The notes beneath the pieces were generated by a model. It was not told the origin of the DNA. It did no database searches and saw only the letters and a list, made by a program, of their open reading frames with translations. Below are positions 1-10,405 of a stretch of DNA of 35,206 nt, in pieces. Each line of letters starts with the position of its first letter. The first letter of the stretch is position 1. Source of the DNA: Acidobacteriota bacterium (GTDB lineage: Bacteria > Acidobacteriota > Holophagae > Holophagales > Holophagaceae); the NCBI GenBank assembly GCA_021812805.1, contig JAKAMQ010000009.1, positions 1 through 35,206 of the forward strand, read 5' to 3'. The position numbers were made by a program, and so were the translations under genes.

Positions 1-25
1 GCGTTGTGTGAAGAGGGGCTGCGGC
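1..25 (-). repeat. Variant CRISPR repeat at the leader-distal side
   Basis: The last 25 bp (plus-strand sense) of a repeat lie at the window edge. It reads GAGGGGCTGCGGC where all other copies read GAGGCGCTGCGGC, a single C to G change. Degenerate repeats are typical of the leader-distal end, so the array may finish near or just beyond the window edge. The edge hides the other 11 bp. Confidence 0.8.
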
Positions 26-1556
26 TTTCGATGTGCTGCACTGGCTGCCGGATGCGCTGGATCGTGCCCGCTGCGCGTTGTGTGAAGAGGCGCTGCGGCC
101 ATGGTGGCTCCTGTGGTGTGCGGGTGATTCCCGACAGTGCCCGCTGCGCGTTGTGTGAAGAGGCGCTGCGGCTGTGCGGGTGATTCCCGACAGGACCAGT
201 ATCGGCTGTGCCCGCTGCGCGTTGTGTGAAGAGGCGCTGCGGCGATCACCCTCCTGCTCCAGGGCGGCCATGACGTCGGTGCCCGCTGCGCGTTGTGTGA
301 AGAGGCGCTGCGGCCGCCTGGGTCAACCTGCTCATGGGATGGCCCATCGCGTGCCCGCTGCGCGTTGTGTGAAGAGGCGCTGCGGCGCGTTTGGTTAGGT
401 TCCGAAGCAGCACCAACCCATTAGTGCCCGCTGCGCGTTGTGTGAAGAGGCGCTGCGGCAACCTGATGCTGGATGCCGGGGTGGACCCCATCACCATCGT
501 GCCCGCTGCGCGTTGTGTGAAGAGGCGCTGCGGCTGGTCCCGGCCAATTCCATGCCGTCGTCGCTGTACCCGTGCCCGCTGCGCGTTGTGTGAAGAGGCG
601 CTGCGGCGTGACGACAGCCTCGCCCGTGAGATCGCCGCGCTGATGTGCCCGCTGCGCGTTGTGTGAAGAGGCGCTGCGGCAATGGCTGTTCCAGCGGCAT
701 GAGTTGCAGCAATAGATCGTGCCCGCTGCGCGTTGTGTGAAGAGGCGCTGCGGCAAGCTAATTTTCAGGCAAACATTCAGGCATCCCAAAAGTGCCCGCT
801 GCGCGTTGTGTGAAGAGGCGCTGCGGCGGGTGAACGGGGGATCCAATGGGTGGGACCGGTTCAAGGTGCCCGCTGCGCGTTGTGTGAAGAGGCGCTGCGG
901 CCACTTGGCGGGCGTCTCCAGCCAGGGCCGCACGTTGTGCCCGCTGCGCGTTGTGTGAAGAGGCGCTGCGGCGGAGTAGCCCAGCGGGATCAGGTCAAGA
1001 TAGGTGGGTGCCCGCTGCGCGTTGTGTGAAGAGGCGCTGCGGCGCGGATTCATGCTTCGCGCCAAAGACTGGACCTCCCTCACGTGCCCGCTGCGCGTTG
1101 TGTGAAGAGGCGCTGCGGCGCCAGAAGCCCGTAGCCGCCGCGCTGGACGTTCCCGGTGCCCGCTGCGCGTTGTGTGAAGAGGCGCTGCGGCGCGCCTGAC
1201 CCGCTGGAGGTGCAGTGATGCCTATCCCAGTGCCCGCTGCGCGTTGTGTGAAGAGGCGCTGCGGCGACGCCAGAGGGAGGGACCGAAACCCAACCTTGGC
1301 GGGTGCCCGCTGCGCGTTGTGTGAAGAGGCGCTGCGGCGGCCTCAAGGTGCTTACAGATGGCCTGGAACAATTACTGTGCCCGCTGCGCGTTGTGTGAAG
1401 AGGCGCTGCGGCGGACGAGCAGGCCGAAGCGTGGTATGTGAACTATCAGTGCCCGCTGCGCGTTGTGTGAAGAGGCGCTGCGGCCAAGCGGAAGCCAGCA
1501 GCGGCGGGGGTGGTCTGATGGTGCCCGCTGCGCGTTGTGTGAAGAGGCGCTGCGGC
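1..1556 (-). CRISPR. Type V-B CRISPR array, 22 repeats (first cut by the edge) and 21 spacers
   Basis: A 36-bp repeat recurs at plus-strand starts 64, 137, 208, 279, 351, 424, 499, 572, 645, 719, 792, 866, 937, 1008, 1084, 1156, 1230, 1303, 1377, 1449 and 1521, plus a 25-bp remnant at 1-25. Spacers are 35 to 40 bp. Full copies look identical. Read on the minus strand the repeat begins GCCGCAGCGCC and ends GCAGCGGGCAC; the GGCAC end adjoining the spacer is the same as in known Cas12b repeats. This, the co-orientation with cas genes and the position of the tracrRNA set transcription as right to left, so the newest spacer should be 1485-1520 and the oldest 26-63. The repeat ends are partly self-complementary, with one bulge and one mismatch. 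Confidence 0.98.
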
Positions 1557-1704
1557 GGCGTCCTTGCAAAGCCTTTATGAGGCGCCACTCCGGGGCCTGC
1601 CGTGCGAGCAGCGATCCTCCCGGGATCGTCGCAGGCCTGGAACGGCTGGAACCTCTACGGCAAAATGCGGCGAAAAGGGAAGCTACCCAATGAATTAGGC
1701 TGCC
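1557..1704 (-). promoter_or_regulatory. Leader region of the CRISPR array
   Basis: This stretch separates the tracrRNA-side hairpin from the first repeat and has no convincing coding frame. By position it is the leader, where array transcription and spacer integration should be specified. On the minus strand it holds AT-richer patches (TAATTCATT near 1697-1689, CATTTTG near 1667-1661, CATAAAGG near 1579-1572). A weak inverted repeat, GATCC/GGATC, lies at 1613-1627. I could not define a convincing -35/-10 promoter. Confidence 0.6.
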
Positions 1705-1745
1705 GCGAGCACCTCCCAGGTTTCTGGACATCCGGAGGCGCTCGC
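1705..1745 (-). terminator. 12-bp hairpin just 3' of the tracrRNA anti-repeat
   Basis: On the minus strand GCGAGCGCCTCC (1745-1734) pairs with GGAGGTGCTCGC (1716-1705) over all 12 positions, one being a G-U wobble, with a 17-nt loop. It starts six bases after the anti-repeat. The tract after it is CAGCCTAATTC, not a clear run of T, so it is either an atypical terminator, a 3' end stabiliser for the tracrRNA, or a structured part of the leader. Confidence 0.5.
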
Positions 1746-1751
1746 GAACAT

Positions 1752-1868
1752 GCCGCAGCGCATTCTCAAAGACACAAGCGCAACGCCTGGGGGTGCCGGT
1801 CCTCTGGCCTTGGGGGGGGAACCGGCTGGGGCACGTGGCCAGGGTTGAGGAGACTCTGTGCCTCTTCT
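1752..1868 (-). ncRNA. tracrRNA of the type V-B system (predicted from sequence)
   Basis: The RNA should pair with the crRNA repeat to form the Cas12b guide. On the minus strand an anti-repeat runs from 1787 to 1752. It contains GCGTTGCGC, then TTGTGT, and ends with GCGCTGCGGC, which is exactly complementary to the first ten bases of the repeat. Upstream, GTGCCC (1834-1829) complements the repeat end GGGCAC. Between the two, GCCGGT (1826-1821) and ACCGGC (1800-1795) form a hairpin. CAACCCTGG (1847-1839) pairs with CCAGGCGTTG (1790-1781) with one bulge. This order (5' arm, GUGCC, hairpin, closing stem, anti-repeat) is that of the Alicyclobacillus Cas12b tracrRNA as I recall it. The 5' end is uncertain: a stretch like AAGAGGCACAG near 1865 resembles the known 5' region, so the RNA probably starts at the cas2 stop codon. 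No promoter is obvious; it may be processed from the cas transcript. Confidence 0.85.
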
Positions 1869-1869
1869 C

Positions 1870-2175
1870 TCAAAAAATCAAGAGATCCAGGTTACGCGGT
1901 TCCCACGGGCGCCCAAGCCATGACACAGCGAGCGCCATGGGTTCATCGTCGTCTTCGGCAACGGGCCCCAGATCAAGGAACAGGATCTGATCCTCGGTCT
2001 TGTGGACAACCTTGTGGAGCCGCTCTTTCAGGATCACCAGATCCTTCCTAGAGAACTGACCGTGGTACACGCTGTACTGGACGCGGTCGCAGGCATCCGC
2101 AACGGCTTTCTGGACTTTCTTCACGCGGCGCTCATCGGCAATATCGTAGGCGATCAGCAGGTGCCGGCGACTCAT
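1870..2175 (-). CDS. cas2: CRISPR-associated endoribonuclease/integration subunit Cas2
   Basis: Cas2 is the structural subunit of the Cas1-Cas2 spacer integrase. The protein is 101 residues, a normal length. It opens with the beta strand LLIAYDIAD, in which Asp11 is the usual conserved acidic residue, followed by RRVKKVQKAV and the YSVYHGQFS strand expected of the ferredoxin-like fold. The ATG at 2175 overlaps the cas4-cas1 stop codon in an ATGA arrangement, which implies translational coupling and fixes the start. The frame stays open further upstream, to 2589, but that part lies inside cas1 and is not Cas2-like. The stop codon at 1870 abuts the predicted tracrRNA. Confidence 0.95.
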   Translation of the reverse strand: MSRRHLLIAYDIADERRVKKVQKAVADACDRVQYSVYHGQFSRKDLVILKERLHKVVHKTEDQILFLDLGPVAEDDDEPMALAVSWLGRPWEPRNLDLLIF

Positions 2176-3878
2176 CGGGTCACCAGCGGGTTCCAGGAAG
2201 CGATCCCTCCCTCCAGCCATTGGGTCAGCAGGCGGGCTTCCAGTTCCAGCACCCGGCGGTAGCTGATCCGATACCCGAAGGCTGGATGGGTAATGAGTTC
2301 GCTCATACGCTGCTCGTACGCCTCGATGAGGCGCGGGCGCGCCGCATCCGTGAGGGCCGCGCCTCCCGGTGTGACGAGGACGTCTCCCGGTTCGAGCATG
2401 CCGGTATTGAGGGCGCGCAGGACGGCGCTGTCCGCGATCAGAGGCCGGAAGGGCTCCATGAGATCGAGGGCCAGGGCCGGACGACCTGGCTTCAAGGCGT
2501 GGTAGGCGCCGAACATGGGATCCAGGCCAACCTGGCTCAGAACGACGGCGGCATCTCGGGCCAGGAGGGCGTAGGCGAAGCTCAGACATGCATTCACCGC
2601 ATCCCTCGGGGGACGGCGGCTGCGGCCCTTCATGAGCGGCTGCCAGGCGGGCTCGAGCATGCCGGGGAACGCCTCGAAATAGTGCCGGGCTGCGCTGCCC
2701 TCCAAACCCAACAGGGTGTCCAGGGAGGCTGCGTCCTGTGTGGCCTTCGCCAGATCCGCCAGGGCTTCCTGGACGGGTTTCCCGGGATGGTTCCGCCGGA
2801 GAAGAACGCGCTGGTTCCGAATCTTGGCTTCCACCAGGTCCCGGGCAATGGCCAGGCGAAGGCTGGGCAGGGAAAACTTCACGAACTGGAGGCGCCGCAG
2901 CTCCACATTCTGGGTGGCCAACGGCATGGTGAGGCCCAGAAGGCGCCCGCCGCGGCTCAGGTGGGCCACGCTGCGCTGGTTGTCCATCAAGAAGTGCAGG
3001 GCCTGGGAGGTGATCTGGATGCCTTGGCCGAAGGCTGCAACCTGAATCACATCCTTGATGGGCACTTTCTCGATTACCTGCCCCTTCTCCTTCACCACGA
3101 TGGCATCACCATCCTTGGCCAGCAGAAGCCCTGGGGTGCTGAGATACAGCACCCCGCCATCGGGCCGTGCGGGGAGAATGCGGCGCGGCTCTCCCACGCG
3201 GTGCTTCAGCAGGTTGGTCTCATCGGGCAGACACACCGGAGCCAGGGAGCAGCCGAGGCATTTTGGGCTGTCCATCAAGGGATCCGGGAGCGGGGCATCC
3301 TGTAGGGTTCGGGCGCGAGACACAGCCTCCCGGAAAGCGGCTTCCAGAGATGGCGTGCGGGGAACCCTGGCATGGGTACGGCTCTCCCGGTAGTAAAGCT
3401 CCCCATGGGCAGTCGGATACCCATTGGCTTCCAGGAGGAGGATCTGTCCCATGACCTGCACCTGGTCCCCATCCCATGCACCCGGCGGAAGGTCGTGACC
3501 GCGCCACCGCTGGGGGCGGCCGGGGTCTGGCGCACGGCCGTGTTTGGCTTCGACAGGCACCAGCTTGCCATCCTCCGCGTGAACGGCATCCAGCCGTCCC
3601 ACGAGTCCCAGTGATTCGCTCACCAGATGCAGCTGTTCCGGCAGGGCCCAGGGCGGCGCAGCTCCTTCCGCCTGCACCAGCCGGTCCTTCCCCTTCCGGC
3701 GGATCTGGGCCCGGGCGTGCTGACCCGTGCCTTCGAGGGTGTCACCGCTGTGGACCATGATCCCCTGGACGGCCATGAGGTGGTACAACCGCTCGCAATA
3801 GACCAGCTCGGTCAGCATGCGCAAGGGGATGAGCGGATCAGGTTCCACCGTCAGAAGCCGTGGAATTCGGCAGACCAA
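2172..3878 (-). CDS. cas4-cas1: Cas4-Cas1 fusion, spacer-acquisition nuclease/integrase
   Basis: One 568-residue chain joins Cas4 (about 10-220) and Cas1 (about 230-568); this fusion is characteristic of V-B and a few type I systems. The Cas4 half has the iron-sulfur cysteines Cys28 and Cys207, Cys210, Cys216, plus GRLDAV (Asp97) and VEAKHG (Glu110, Lys112) of the RecB-type nuclease core and QVMGQILLLE. It trims prespacers and selects the PAM. The Cas1 half has GLEGSAARHYF (Glu393), GAYH (His460) and LDLMEPFRP (Asp472, Glu475), the metal ligands of the integrase. The 3878 start is a TTG that overlaps the end of cas12b by 28 bp. A GTG at 3848, three bases after the cas12b stop, is an equally plausible start and loses only ten residues. 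The gene is coupled to cas2 by an ATGA overlap. Confidence 0.95.
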   Translation of the reverse strand: MVCRIPRLLTVEPDPLIPLRMLTELVYCERLYHLMAVQGIMVHSGDTLEGTGQHARAQIRRKGKDRLVQAEGAAPPWALPEQLHLVSESLGLVGRLDAVHAEDGKLVPVEAKHGRAPDPGRPQRWRGHDLPPGAWDGDQVQVMGQILLLEANGYPTAHGELYYRESRTHARVPRTPSLEAAFREAVSRARTLQDAPLPDPLMDSPKCLGCSLAPVCLPDETNLLKHRVGEPRRILPARPDGGVLYLSTPGLLLAKDGDAIVVKEKGQVIEKVPIKDVIQVAAFGQGIQITSQALHFLMDNQRSVAHLSRGGRLLGLTMPLATQNVELRRLQFVKFSLPSLRLAIARDLVEAKIRNQRVLLRRNHPGKPVQEALADLAKATQDAASLDTLLGLEGSAARHYFEAFPGMLEPAWQPLMKGRSRRPPRDAVNACLSFAYALLARDAAVVLSQVGLDPMFGAYHALKPGRPALALDLMEPFRPLIADSAVLRALNTGMLEPGDVLVTPGGAALTDAARPRLIEAYEQRMSELITHPAFGYRISYRRVLELEARLLTQWLEGGIASWNPLVTR

Positions 3879-6800
3879 GGCTCCTCATCCGCAGGGCGGC
3901 CCGCCGCTGCGGCCATGGCGTTCTGGATGCGGGAGCGGACCACGCCCCAGAACGTCTTGCCGTCGTACCAGCGGTCCCGGCGAAGCACCAGCCCGCTCGG
4001 ATCCCGGAAGAAATTCACGGGCCGCCCGTGGGCTTCATGGACCCCCTCGGCTTCCTGGGCGTCCTCAAGCTCGGCTTCGTCCATCAACTCTCCTTCGTCC
4101 AATCCAGCCTCGGATTCCGGCCCAGATTTGTCGCGTTTGGTCTTCTTGATGCCCGTAGCCTTCCGCCAATCCTTCTCTGCCAGGGGTTCGAACCGGAACG
4201 CCCCTGATTCTCCCTCGCAGGGGATCAGGCGGCCTCCAACGTGGCCATAGGTCGCCCGCAGGGCCCCTTGGATCCGCGCTCCCTCACTGAGGGTGATCCA
4301 CCCGCCATCAGCCTCCTGACGGGCAGCCACCTTGAAGGCCTCGCCATGCCGACGGAAATACCGGCGGGCCAGACTTCCGGCCGCGTTGAGATCGGCCGCG
4401 AGCGGCTGCGTGTCGAGAACCAGGGACCGGCCTGGGCCCAAAGTGGCAAAACCCACGCCCCCGGTCCAGTGGATCCATTCTCCGGCTTTCAGTGTGTCCT
4501 TCTTCAAGTGGCGGGCCTCCAGCTCCTTCTGCAACCACTCGGTTCCGAGATCCGCTTCCTCGATCTGCCGAACCCGGACGCCGGGCGCCCCGGTGGCCGC
4601 ATGGAACCGGGACGAGTAGTCCGCGCCAGTTGTTTCCACGGCGATGCCGAACAACTGGGCCATCTCCTTCACCTTGTCCAGGAGGCTCCGGTGGTTCCAG
4701 ACCATGAGCTGGCTGTTCTCATGGCGGGGCCGATCCTTGAGGGTGCGGTAGCGGTTGAGATCCTCCAGCAGGAGGACGTGGCAGGGGTCATGGATCTGGC
4801 TCCAGGTGCCCACAGCCTGATCGAAGGCAAGGCCCCGCGCGGCATTCACCAGGAGGTTGGCCCCTTCCTTGAGGCGGTCCTCCCGCAAGGCGTTGATGTG
4901 TACCAGCAGATCGGCGGCGAAGGTGCCCTCGCGCTCACGCTCGGCACGCTTGATCTGGCCTGAGCGGGCTCGATTCTGCCAACGCCGGAGCAGGGTGCGG
5001 ACATCCTCCAGGTGTTCGATCCCTCGGATGCTCTTGCCGAATACATCCTGGCGCCGGGGATCCCGGCGACGACTGCGCCCCCGCCAAACCCCCAGCAGGG
5101 CTTCCAGGGCCCAATCCCAATCGCGGCGGCGGGCGCCCAGCGCCTCCGGCGAGTCCATCGGGCGCACAGGAGCCAATCCAAAGGCCTCCCGCAGCACAGG
5201 TTCCCAGCGTGCCCGATCCTTCAGGTCCACGGGGAGATGGCCATGGGGCGGATCATCGGCCCGCAACAGGTCGGCCAAGGCCGCATCAAGGCGGGCACGG
5301 GCGGGGAGGTTGGCCTCTTCCTCTTGGAGGGCTTCCGCAAAAGCCTCAGGATCGAAGGGCCGCAAGGCTGCGCATCGGGCCAGGGCTCTGCGTCGGCTCA
5401 GGGCCCGCTTGAAGAGCCATAGGGGTTCAAGGATGGTTTTCTGCCGCTGATGCCGGGCGGTCCAGACCTCGGGGGCATCAGCACCCTGCTCCCCGGGCAG
5501 GGCGAGCAGGCGCTTGCTTCCGGGCACCTCCACCGCCCACCAGCGGCCAGCCCCTGTGGGTACGGGATGGGCGAGGCGGCCCGGCGCTGGTTCCTGATCC
5601 GTCAACTCGAAGGCCACCACAGCGCCGAGGGTTCGCACGCCGAGATCCACGCACAGCACCCGTTGGGCGGTTCGCAGGCCCACCTCATGCGATGTGGCCG
5701 GTCCGGCTTCCAAGCCGGAATTCAAGTGGTGCGCCCATTTGGGGCCGTCCTTGGACCAGGCCCCCGGCTCTTCGCGTAGGCATCCCGGTACATCCACGGG
5801 ATCCAGATCAAGGGTCAGTTTCAGAAAAGCGGAGCCCAGACGCCCGCTTTCTAAATCAGCGGGATCCGCAGGAAACCGCTCTCGATCGAACTGGATGAAG
5901 GCACTACCCACAGCGCCCTCCCAACGCTCCCAGGCCTCTCGGGCGGACGCCCGGTGCAGGGCCGGGGCCTGGATGAACGACAGCCTGGGCTTCCCCTTCT
6001 CGACTTCCCGGAGGGCTCCGGGAGCCACGGCCAGTTGGGCGCTGGGTGCCAGCTGGAACGTGGCCTCGATCTCCCGGAGGCCCGCCTCCTCCCGGCTCAG
6101 CAGCGGCAGCGCCACGAAGAGGATCCCCTCCCCGGATTGCTCCAATACGAACTTCTTGAGGTTGCTGCTAGCGGATTCGTATTCAAGCCAGTTGGGATGC
6201 CGCGTGGGATGAATGAGAGTGAGGGTCGCCCGGGGCTTGGTTCGGGCCAAGCGGCGACGTCCTTCGGTCGCCAGTGCCCAGAGCTGGACGAAGGCCACCC
6301 CGGCCTCGCTGCGCCAAAGGGCCTGGCCCTCAGAATGATCCACCAGCCAGCCGACGAAGACAGGATCCGGAAAGGCACGGGGATCCTTCTTCTGGAGGGT
6401 GGCAGCCGCTTCCCGAAGCGCCTTGGGATCGTCAGGGATGGGGCGCCATACCTCGGCCAGGCGGTCGAAGTGCCGCACGGCCCGGCGGCCCAGGGCGTAG
6501 GTCTCCTCCGAGGCCAGGGCTCCGGCCCGTGTCAAATCCACCTGCCGCCAGGCCTCGAAGGCGTGGAGATGGACCGTCAGATCTGGCTTTTGATTCAACC
6601 GCGCCTCGAGGCCCTCCACTCGCTGACGCCGCTCCTCGTGCTGGCCGGCGCAGCGCAGATTCCAGCTTTCCCAGGAAAGCAGCCGGCTGATGGCCAGCTT
6701 GAAGGCAAGGCGGTCCCACTTGCTCAAATAGCCACGTTCGCCTTTCCCCGGGGCCTGGATTCGCTGTTTCAACGGGGGGTGGTTCAAGAAGGGAAGAAGG

Positions 6801-7504
6801 CCCGCCGCCCGGAGTTCCTGCAACAGGGCCGATTCGCCCCCCGGCGCGATTTTGGCCGCATTGTCGGAAAGGGATTTGAGAAATGATTCAACCCAGCCTG
6901 ACAGCTGCATGGGGCCTTTCTTGAGGGCAGTCCTCCACCCGGCCTGCCGTCCAGTGGGGTTCGCATTCGCAGCCTCTGCGACCGCCCAGACTTGGGCTGA
7001 GGCCTCCCAGGCCGGATCTCCAGCCTCCTTCAGAGACACCCAAGCTGGGGCTTCAGCCTTGGCGTATGCGCCTGTGCCTCCTTCACTGGAAGGGTCCACC
7101 AGAGGGCCCATTAGGCGATTGGCCGCTTGAGCATCCCCGTCCCCTCCCTCCACGCTGGGCACCAGGAGCGCATAGAGGGACTGAAGCGTGGGGACCAGGG
7201 CCTGGGCCTCTTCTTTCGTCTTCTTGAACTGATGTTTCACCCGTTCGGCGAGATGTCGCTGAACCATGGCCTCGGGAAGCTGGAATAGGCCATCCGCATC
7301 GCGGCTGTCCTCCCCTGCGGGATGGCCCAGGGCTCGCGCCAGGGCGGCATCGCCCGTGGCGATGGCACGGCCTCGGAGCAGGAGCAGCTCCTGCATGTAG
7401 GAGGCGGCCTCTTCCATCACCACGCGATGCGTGGTGCCAAGGGCCCGCCAGGCCACAGCGTAATCGGGCGGGACCAGTTTCAGTTCAATGGAACGAACGG
7501 GCAT
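3851..7504 (-). CDS. cas12b: Cas12b (C2c1), RNA-guided DNA endonuclease, subtype V-B effector
   Basis: The single effector uses crRNA plus tracrRNA to bind and cut double-stranded DNA with one RuvC site; known relatives read a T-rich 5' PAM. The protein is 1217 residues, somewhat longer than the 1129 of Alicyclobacillus Cas12b. The N-terminus MPVRSIELKL matches MAVKSIKVKL of that enzyme. SRLLSWESWN (about 274-283) matches a conserved recognition-lobe motif. RuvC-I is CVDLGVRTLG (Asp620), RuvC-II is LLLEDLNRYR (Glu914) and RuvC-III is AADLNAAG (Asp1038), so the site looks intact. An Arg-rich bridge-helix-like segment follows RuvC-I, and TGAPGVRVRQ keeps the Nuc-domain arginine. The C-terminus carries FRDPSGLVLRRDRWY, also conserved. 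An acidic stretch sits near 1128-1157. The ATG at 7504 is chosen over an upstream in-frame codon (7543) because AGAGGGG lies 7 bases before it and the homologous N-terminus starts there. Confidence 0.97.
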   Translation of the reverse strand: MPVRSIELKLVPPDYAVAWRALGTTHRVVMEEAASYMQELLLLRGRAIATGDAALARALGHPAGEDSRDADGLFQLPEAMVQRHLAERVKHQFKKTKEEAQALVPTLQSLYALLVPSVEGGDGDAQAANRLMGPLVDPSSEGGTGAYAKAEAPAWVSLKEAGDPAWEASAQVWAVAEAANANPTGRQAGWRTALKKGPMQLSGWVESFLKSLSDNAAKIAPGGESALLQELRAAGLLPFLNHPPLKQRIQAPGKGERGYLSKWDRLAFKLAISRLLSWESWNLRCAGQHEERRQRVEGLEARLNQKPDLTVHLHAFEAWRQVDLTRAGALASEETYALGRRAVRHFDRLAEVWRPIPDDPKALREAAATLQKKDPRAFPDPVFVGWLVDHSEGQALWRSEAGVAFVQLWALATEGRRRLARTKPRATLTLIHPTRHPNWLEYESASSNLKKFVLEQSGEGILFVALPLLSREEAGLREIEATFQLAPSAQLAVAPGALREVEKGKPRLSFIQAPALHRASAREAWERWEGAVGSAFIQFDRERFPADPADLESGRLGSAFLKLTLDLDPVDVPGCLREEPGAWSKDGPKWAHHLNSGLEAGPATSHEVGLRTAQRVLCVDLGVRTLGAVVAFELTDQEPAPGRLAHPVPTGAGRWWAVEVPGSKRLLALPGEQGADAPEVWTARHQRQKTILEPLWLFKRALSRRRALARCAALRPFDPEAFAEALQEEEANLPARARLDAALADLLRADDPPHGHLPVDLKDRARWEPVLREAFGLAPVRPMDSPEALGARRRDWDWALEALLGVWRGRSRRRDPRRQDVFGKSIRGIEHLEDVRTLLRRWQNRARSGQIKRAEREREGTFAADLLVHINALREDRLKEGANLLVNAARGLAFDQAVGTWSQIHDPCHVLLLEDLNRYRTLKDRPRHENSQLMVWNHRSLLDKVKEMAQLFGIAVETTGADYSSRFHAATGAPGVRVRQIEEADLGTEWLQKELEARHLKKDTLKAGEWIHWTGGVGFATLGPGRSLVLDTQPLAADLNAAGSLARRYFRRHGEAFKVAARQEADGGWITLSEGARIQGALRATYGHVGGRLIPCEGESGAFRFEPLAEKDWRKATGIKKTKRDKSGPESEAGLDEGELMDEAELEDAQEAEGVHEAHGRPVNFFRDPSGLVLRRDRWYDGKTFWGVVRSRIQNAMAAAAGRPADEEPWSAEFHGF

Positions 7505-7573
7505 GGTGAACCCCTCTGGCGGAATTTTCCAGAAGCCTACCACCCCGAATCGGACAAAAAATGACCAATTCGT
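7505..7573 (-). other. Short gap between uvrA and cas12b
   Basis: Only 69 bp separate the uvrA stop from the cas12b start. On the minus strand it contains TTGGTC, a run of six T and the ribosome binding site AGAGGGG. No -10 box sits at a normal distance from TTGGTC and no hairpin precedes the T run, so neither a promoter nor a terminator is convincing. The cas operon could be read through from uvrA or start within the uvrA coding region. Confidence 0.5.

Positions 7574-10405
<2,832 letters not shown>

Follow-up and report, generated by a model that had tools for sequence, protein, structure and literature searches.

A predicted tracrRNA gene in a divergent type V-B CRISPR-Cas12b locus of a Holophagaceae bacterium

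Introduction

Characterised Cas12b proteins are dual-RNA-guided nucleases. We examined a locus that encodes such a protein in a fragmented, Holophagaceae-type genome (242 contigs, 88% complete), using as our window the whole 35,206-nucleotide stretch of contig JAKAMQ010000009.1. A preliminary description of this DNA had read the minus strand from 1868 to 1752 as a tracrRNA with four pairings in the order found in Alicyclobacillus. Our analysis leads to the same assignment, to which we give a probability of about 95% on sequence evidence: positions 1752 to 1868 of the minus strand would encode the tracrRNA of a type V-B CRISPR-Cas12b system.

Results

A type V-B locus with a complete gene set

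The minus strand of the window carries, in order, cas12b, a cas4-cas1 fusion, cas2, the tracr stretch, a leader of about 195 bases and a CRISPR array:

3851 to 7504, minus strand: cas12b (1217 aa from the ATG at 7504; the reading frame is open from a GTG at 7543)
2172 to 3878, minus strand: cas4-cas1 fusion (NF049935, Cas4g/Cas1g, 629.6 bits, cut-off 560)
1870 to 2175, minus strand: cas2 (TIGR01573 and PF09827)
1752 to 1868, minus strand: predicted tracrRNA gene (co-fold, joint architecture, cognate-repeat test, comparison across loci)
1 to 1556, minus strand: CRISPR array (21 identical 36-nt repeats at 1556-64 and a degenerate repeat at 25-1)

The cas12b product matches the Cas12b equivalog NF033949 at 455.4 bits (cut-off 150, E 6e-136), the PADLOC Cas12b model (E 2e-170), Cas12b chains in the PDB (E down to 5e-85) and the domains PF22126, PF22202 and PF22077. 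Its residues D633, E927 and D1051 (ORF numbering), which we take to be the counterparts of the catalytic RuvC acidic residues of the Aac protein, are invariant in the Cas12b alignment. The fusion gene overlaps the end of cas12b by 28 bases, and the cas2 stop codon directly precedes the tracr stretch. Judged by these matches the protein assignments are firm, and with Cas12b, a Cas4g/Cas1g fusion, Cas2 and an array all present the locus classifies as type V-B. Cas12b is patchy in the genus (3 of 47 genomes), a distribution in keeping with the horizontal mobility that has been reported for V-B systems (PMC6342934).

In crRNA sense the array repeat reads GCCGCAGCGCCTCTTCACACAACGCGCAGCGGGCAC. At window positions 1-25 the last repeat is cut by the contig end and carries one change (GAGGGGCTG), as might be expected of a degenerate terminal repeat. 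The neighbouring spacers at 100-136 and 173-207 overlap by 20 nt (TGTCGGGAATCACCCGCACA) and so probably both derive from one invader site. No spacer target was found in the phage collection, and the core common to the two overlapping spacers occurred in no viral contig and nowhere else in the genus, so that no PAM could be derived. The known Cas12b PAM is a T-rich 5' TTN; the 5' flank implied for the first overlapping spacer, a single case with no target found, is GGTCC and not TTN. A search for ectopic repeat-like sequences that might yield a regulatory crRNA gave weak, chance-looking matches only, and we rejected this idea.

Pairings of the tracr stretch

The tracr stretch has the crRNA sense and sits between the cas genes and the array; its elements and ends were placed by hand and could be off by a few bases:

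1847 to 1867, minus strand: possible 5' hairpin GAGGC/GUCUC (minimum-energy fold)
1781 to 1847, minus strand: closing stem, CAACCCUGG at 1847-1839 with CCAGGCGUUG at 1790-1781 (constrained fold; counterparts in 14 loci)
1829 to 1834, minus strand: GUGCCC, pseudoknot to the repeat end GGGCAC (compensatory changes in relatives; formed in the co-fold)
1795 to 1826, minus strand: internal hairpin, GCCGGUUC at 1826-1819 with GGACCGGC at 1802-1795 (folds and co-fold)
1752 to 1784, minus strand: anti-repeat GUUGCGCUUGUGUCUUUGAGAAUGCGCUGCGGC (duplex and cognate-repeat test)

All four pairings of the preliminary description exist at their given coordinates. The pairing of GUGCCC (1834-1829) with the repeat end GGGCAC lies at the place and on the strand proposed, and the GCCGGU/ACCGGC hairpin is likewise present. 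The CAAC...GUUG closing stem is there too but is longer than described, continuing as CCUGG/CCAGG with one bulged C. As described, the anti-repeat runs to 1752 and includes ten exact bases, GCGCUGCGGC being the exact complement of repeat bases 1-10; what had been missed is that it shares GUUG (1784-1781) with the closing stem. These four bases have two possible partners, CAAC and the repeat, and can take only one of them at a time, so the closing stem and a full-length anti-repeat compete. The co-fold puts the GUUG arm into the duplex with the repeat and leaves the closing stem unformed. In Alicyclobacillus GUUG is part of the stem and the anti-repeat begins after it, and by analogy the same arrangement is likely here.

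Joint rather than single signals

Taken singly, the tracr elements are unremarkable in DNA this rich in GC. Nor is the RNA by itself more stable than dinucleotide shuffles (z = +0.95). Compared with 2000 dinucleotide shuffles, of which 2 were as good, the anti-repeat stands out (z = -4.0), but its energy alone is not unique, a chance site within a gene at about 22.0 kb reaching -48.4 vs -48.0. The co-fold of the minus-strand RNA with the repeat, proposed as a check in the preliminary description, gave a binding energy of -27.6 kcal/mol, as compared with -3.6 ± 2.5 for shuffled tracrs (0 of 500 as good) and -1.4 kcal/mol for the wrong strand. We also scanned both strands of the window, array excluded, for a knot with an enclosing stem, an inner hairpin and a downstream anti-repeat. 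Among 88 such architectures (from 298 knot candidates) the tracr site ranks first, and this top-ranked architecture is the one between cas2 and the array in the correct orientation.

Comparison with other Cas12b loci

Single-sequence scans gave no Cas12b relatives and an alignment query was needed to recover them; family and alignment searches yielded Cas12b loci from Bacillota, Pseudomonadota, Planctomycetota, Actinomycetota, Acidobacteriota, Hydrogenedentota, Myxococcota and Verrucomicrobiota. Our comparison set comprised 13 array-bearing loci including the window, the tracr of each being cut out by hand. The order of elements recurs across these 13 V-B loci with compensatory changes. The tracr's own repeat was the best partner in 12 of the 13, and none of 100000 permutations reached the diagonal, a result that holds without the two near-duplicate Alicyclobacillus. 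The pseudoknot shows two-sided changes (GUGCC:GGCAC, GUCCC:GGGAC, GUUCC:GGGAC and GUGUC:GACAC), and the base pairs of the tracr co-vary with those of its relatives, which span at least five phyla. What was observed for this tracr is its sequence, its location, its potential to pair and its covariation across the family. When the knot pentamer was constrained to be unpaired, folding gave the stem over the knot and the inner hairpin in most loci; three (L023, L030 and L033) fold otherwise, though the expected stems are available to them. MAFFT alignments of the divergent tracr bodies ignored the stems, so pairs were counted on hand-placed elements and constrained folds, and the counts lean on that placement. 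No Rfam family matched in window positions 1-8000.

Within the same genus, the V-B locus of an uncultured Holophagaceae bacterium (L006/L007/L020/L021) has the same gene order, tracr place and architecture, and its repeat likewise begins GCCGCAG and ends GGGCAC. The Cas12b of L021 is the nearest found (43% identical) and is sister to that of the window in the tree (100/100 support). The repeat of L021 differs, and the anti-repeat at the same place is changed correspondingly; its closing stem is CCUUCG/CGAAGG in place of CAACCCUGG/CCAGG(C)GUUG.

The claim that the order of elements mirrors the Alicyclobacillus RNA was well founded, as the same order occurs in A. acidiphilus (L026), A. macrosporangiidus, A. 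suci and A. dauci as well as in loci of other phyla. The AaCas12b tracr of A. acidiphilus and other Alicyclobacillus tracrs share with the window a CAAC-first closing stem, the GUGCC pseudoknot, an internal hairpin, GUUG and the anti-repeat. As in the window, the Alicyclobacillus tracr lies between cas2 and the array, with the anti-repeat about 230-240 bases before the array. However, there is little sequence identity except GUGCC and CAAC/GUUG, and base composition is indeed very different (69% GC in the window tracr vs 49-54% in three measured Alicyclobacillus tracrs). The window tracr also has a larger internal hairpin and abuts cas2, and whereas a promoter-like sequence can be seen by eye before the tracr in Alicyclobacillus loci, none like it was seen in the window.

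Several other loci vary in their own ways. Repeats of Acidobacteria bacterium BP9.bin43 (L017 and L030) and of an Actinomycetes locus (L031) end GGGAC, not GGCAC, and the tracr GUCCC matches; in L017 the array directly follows cas12b, with no room between for cas4-cas1. On an Alicyclobacillus dauci plasmid (L009, 8010-11374) cas12b, annotated twice, is divided between two overlapping frames and has probably suffered a frameshift; despite the split gene, the tracr and the array seem intact. A separate Cas12b clade whose open frames are long (about 1375-1499 aa in the complete cases; L036, L037 and L039-L041) is hosted by Planctomycetota, Myxococcota, Hydrogenedentota and Thermomonas, and its knot is GUGUC:GACAC where seen (L036, L039 and L040).

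A leader motif common to types V-B and I-G

Behind the anti-repeat, the leader contains two further features:

1704 to 1746, minus strand: hairpin-forming dyad CGCGAGCGCCTC...GAGGTGCTCGCG (arms 1746-1735 and 1715-1704)
1603 to 1611, minus strand: CTGCTCGCA, a third copy of the arm (55 bases ahead of the first repeat)

The V-B leaders examined (L006-L040, several phyla) also contain such inverted arms, their cores spaced 35-36 bp, together with a direct third copy whose core lies about 52 bp before the first repeat. Two subfamilies have a different motif (CGAGCG/CGCTCG or CGCGAAC/GTTCGCG), and their third copy is changed along with it. In 27 of 28 leaders, vs 1.8 expected, the third copy occupies one and the same 5-bp bin, and a generic triad statistic detects the motif in 22 of 28, shuffled leaders averaging 0.14. 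Among the I-G leaders compared (within L059-L072), ten Acidobacteriota Cas4g/Cas1g loci with I-G-like repeats and no Cas12b match in their genomes, which we treat as type I-G, carry the motif in almost the same register. So does a plasmid locus annotated as type I-U (now I-G); the motif was not seen in L071, one locus with a Cas4-Cas1 protein. Some type I-C leaders have a similar GGTTCGCG copy, and the two I-D leaders examined have none.

Type I-G resembles the V-B locus of the window in its Cas4-Cas1 fusion, Cas2 and three-copy leader motif but differs in having no Cas12b and a Cas8-Cas7-Cas5/6 effector; type I-G is not known to have a tracrRNA. Because V-B and I-G share Cas4-Cas1 and Cas2 and not the effector, the motif most likely serves spacer integration, and the hairpin behind the tracrRNA is probably an adaptation element rather than a terminator. 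As a tentative scenario, possible rather than probable, V-B may retain the leader motif of an I-G-like ancestor (an inverted pair about 140-190 bp upstream with cores 35-36 bp apart, plus a direct copy ~52 bp before the first repeat). This motif would anchor the Cas4-Cas1-Cas2 integrase, either alone or together with a bending factor, and insertion of the tracrRNA gene between cas2 and the leader would have accompanied the replacement of the I-G effector by Cas12b.

Discussion

Three tests decide in favor of the tracrRNA assignment and bear out the preliminary reading of 1868-1752: the co-fold with the repeat, the best joint architecture in the window and the comparison across 13 V-B loci. They also make it extremely improbable that the pairings are chance complementarity in GC-rich leader DNA, with the real tracrRNA elsewhere or absent. 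Single-element energies equalled by chance sites and an RNA that alone folds no better than shuffles would fit such an origin, but no shuffle matched the co-fold, and the joint architecture, its position and its covariation in 13 loci speak against it. It is likewise very unlikely that the stretch is a non-functional relic, the decayed tracrRNA of a dead system: while the patchy presence of Cas12b in the genus and the lack of spacer targets found would agree with decay, cas12b, cas4-cas1 and cas2 are all open, the RuvC residues are kept, the array has 21 identical repeats, and tracr and repeat still match each other best.

The remaining alternative concerns the 3' boundary only and not the assignment. 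A strong hairpin (1746-1704) lies 6 bases after the anti-repeat, and the tracrRNA could be longer and end in it as a terminator. We disfavor this and regard it as unlikely, as the hairpin has no U-run and a terminator search reports none there. Moreover, its arms recur 55 bases before the repeat and in leaders of type I-G, systems not known to use a tracrRNA, so that the hairpin looks like a DNA element of the leader.

For the predicted tracrRNA, transcription, processing, Cas12b binding and cleavage would follow the pattern of characterised Cas12b systems. Transcription of the minus strand would yield the RNA, either at the end of the cas operon transcript or from a promoter that our analysis did not recognise. 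We found no sigma-70 promoter in 1540-2250, and since the stretch also starts directly after cas2, the tracr may be cut from the cas transcript. Its 3' anti-repeat would pair with the repeat of the pre-crRNA and its GUGCCC loop would form a pseudoknot with GGGCAC, the end of the repeat that adjoins the spacer, the closing stem and hairpin providing a scaffold held by Cas12b. Guided by the dual RNA, RuvC would then cut invading DNA. For Cas12b loci already in the literature, small RNA-seq mapped the tracrRNA to the interval from cas12b to the array (PMC6342934), guide stem-loops 1 and 2 are indispensable (PMC6255809), and the duplex structure is conserved enough for swapping among orthologs (PMC6476878).

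The interpretation given in the preliminary description is supported, although its novelty was overstated, the tracrRNA being a component that a system of this known kind is expected to have. The locus is a complete, divergent V-B system whose tracrRNA belongs to an already known type, presumably in function too, and its novelty is modest. What it offers is a complete, divergent Cas12b system with a predicted guide RNA, ready for testing as a nuclease. Beyond this organism, the comparison yields a covariation-backed consensus for V-B tracrRNAs, which had no Rfam match here, and a candidate adaptation element common to V-B and I-G leaders.
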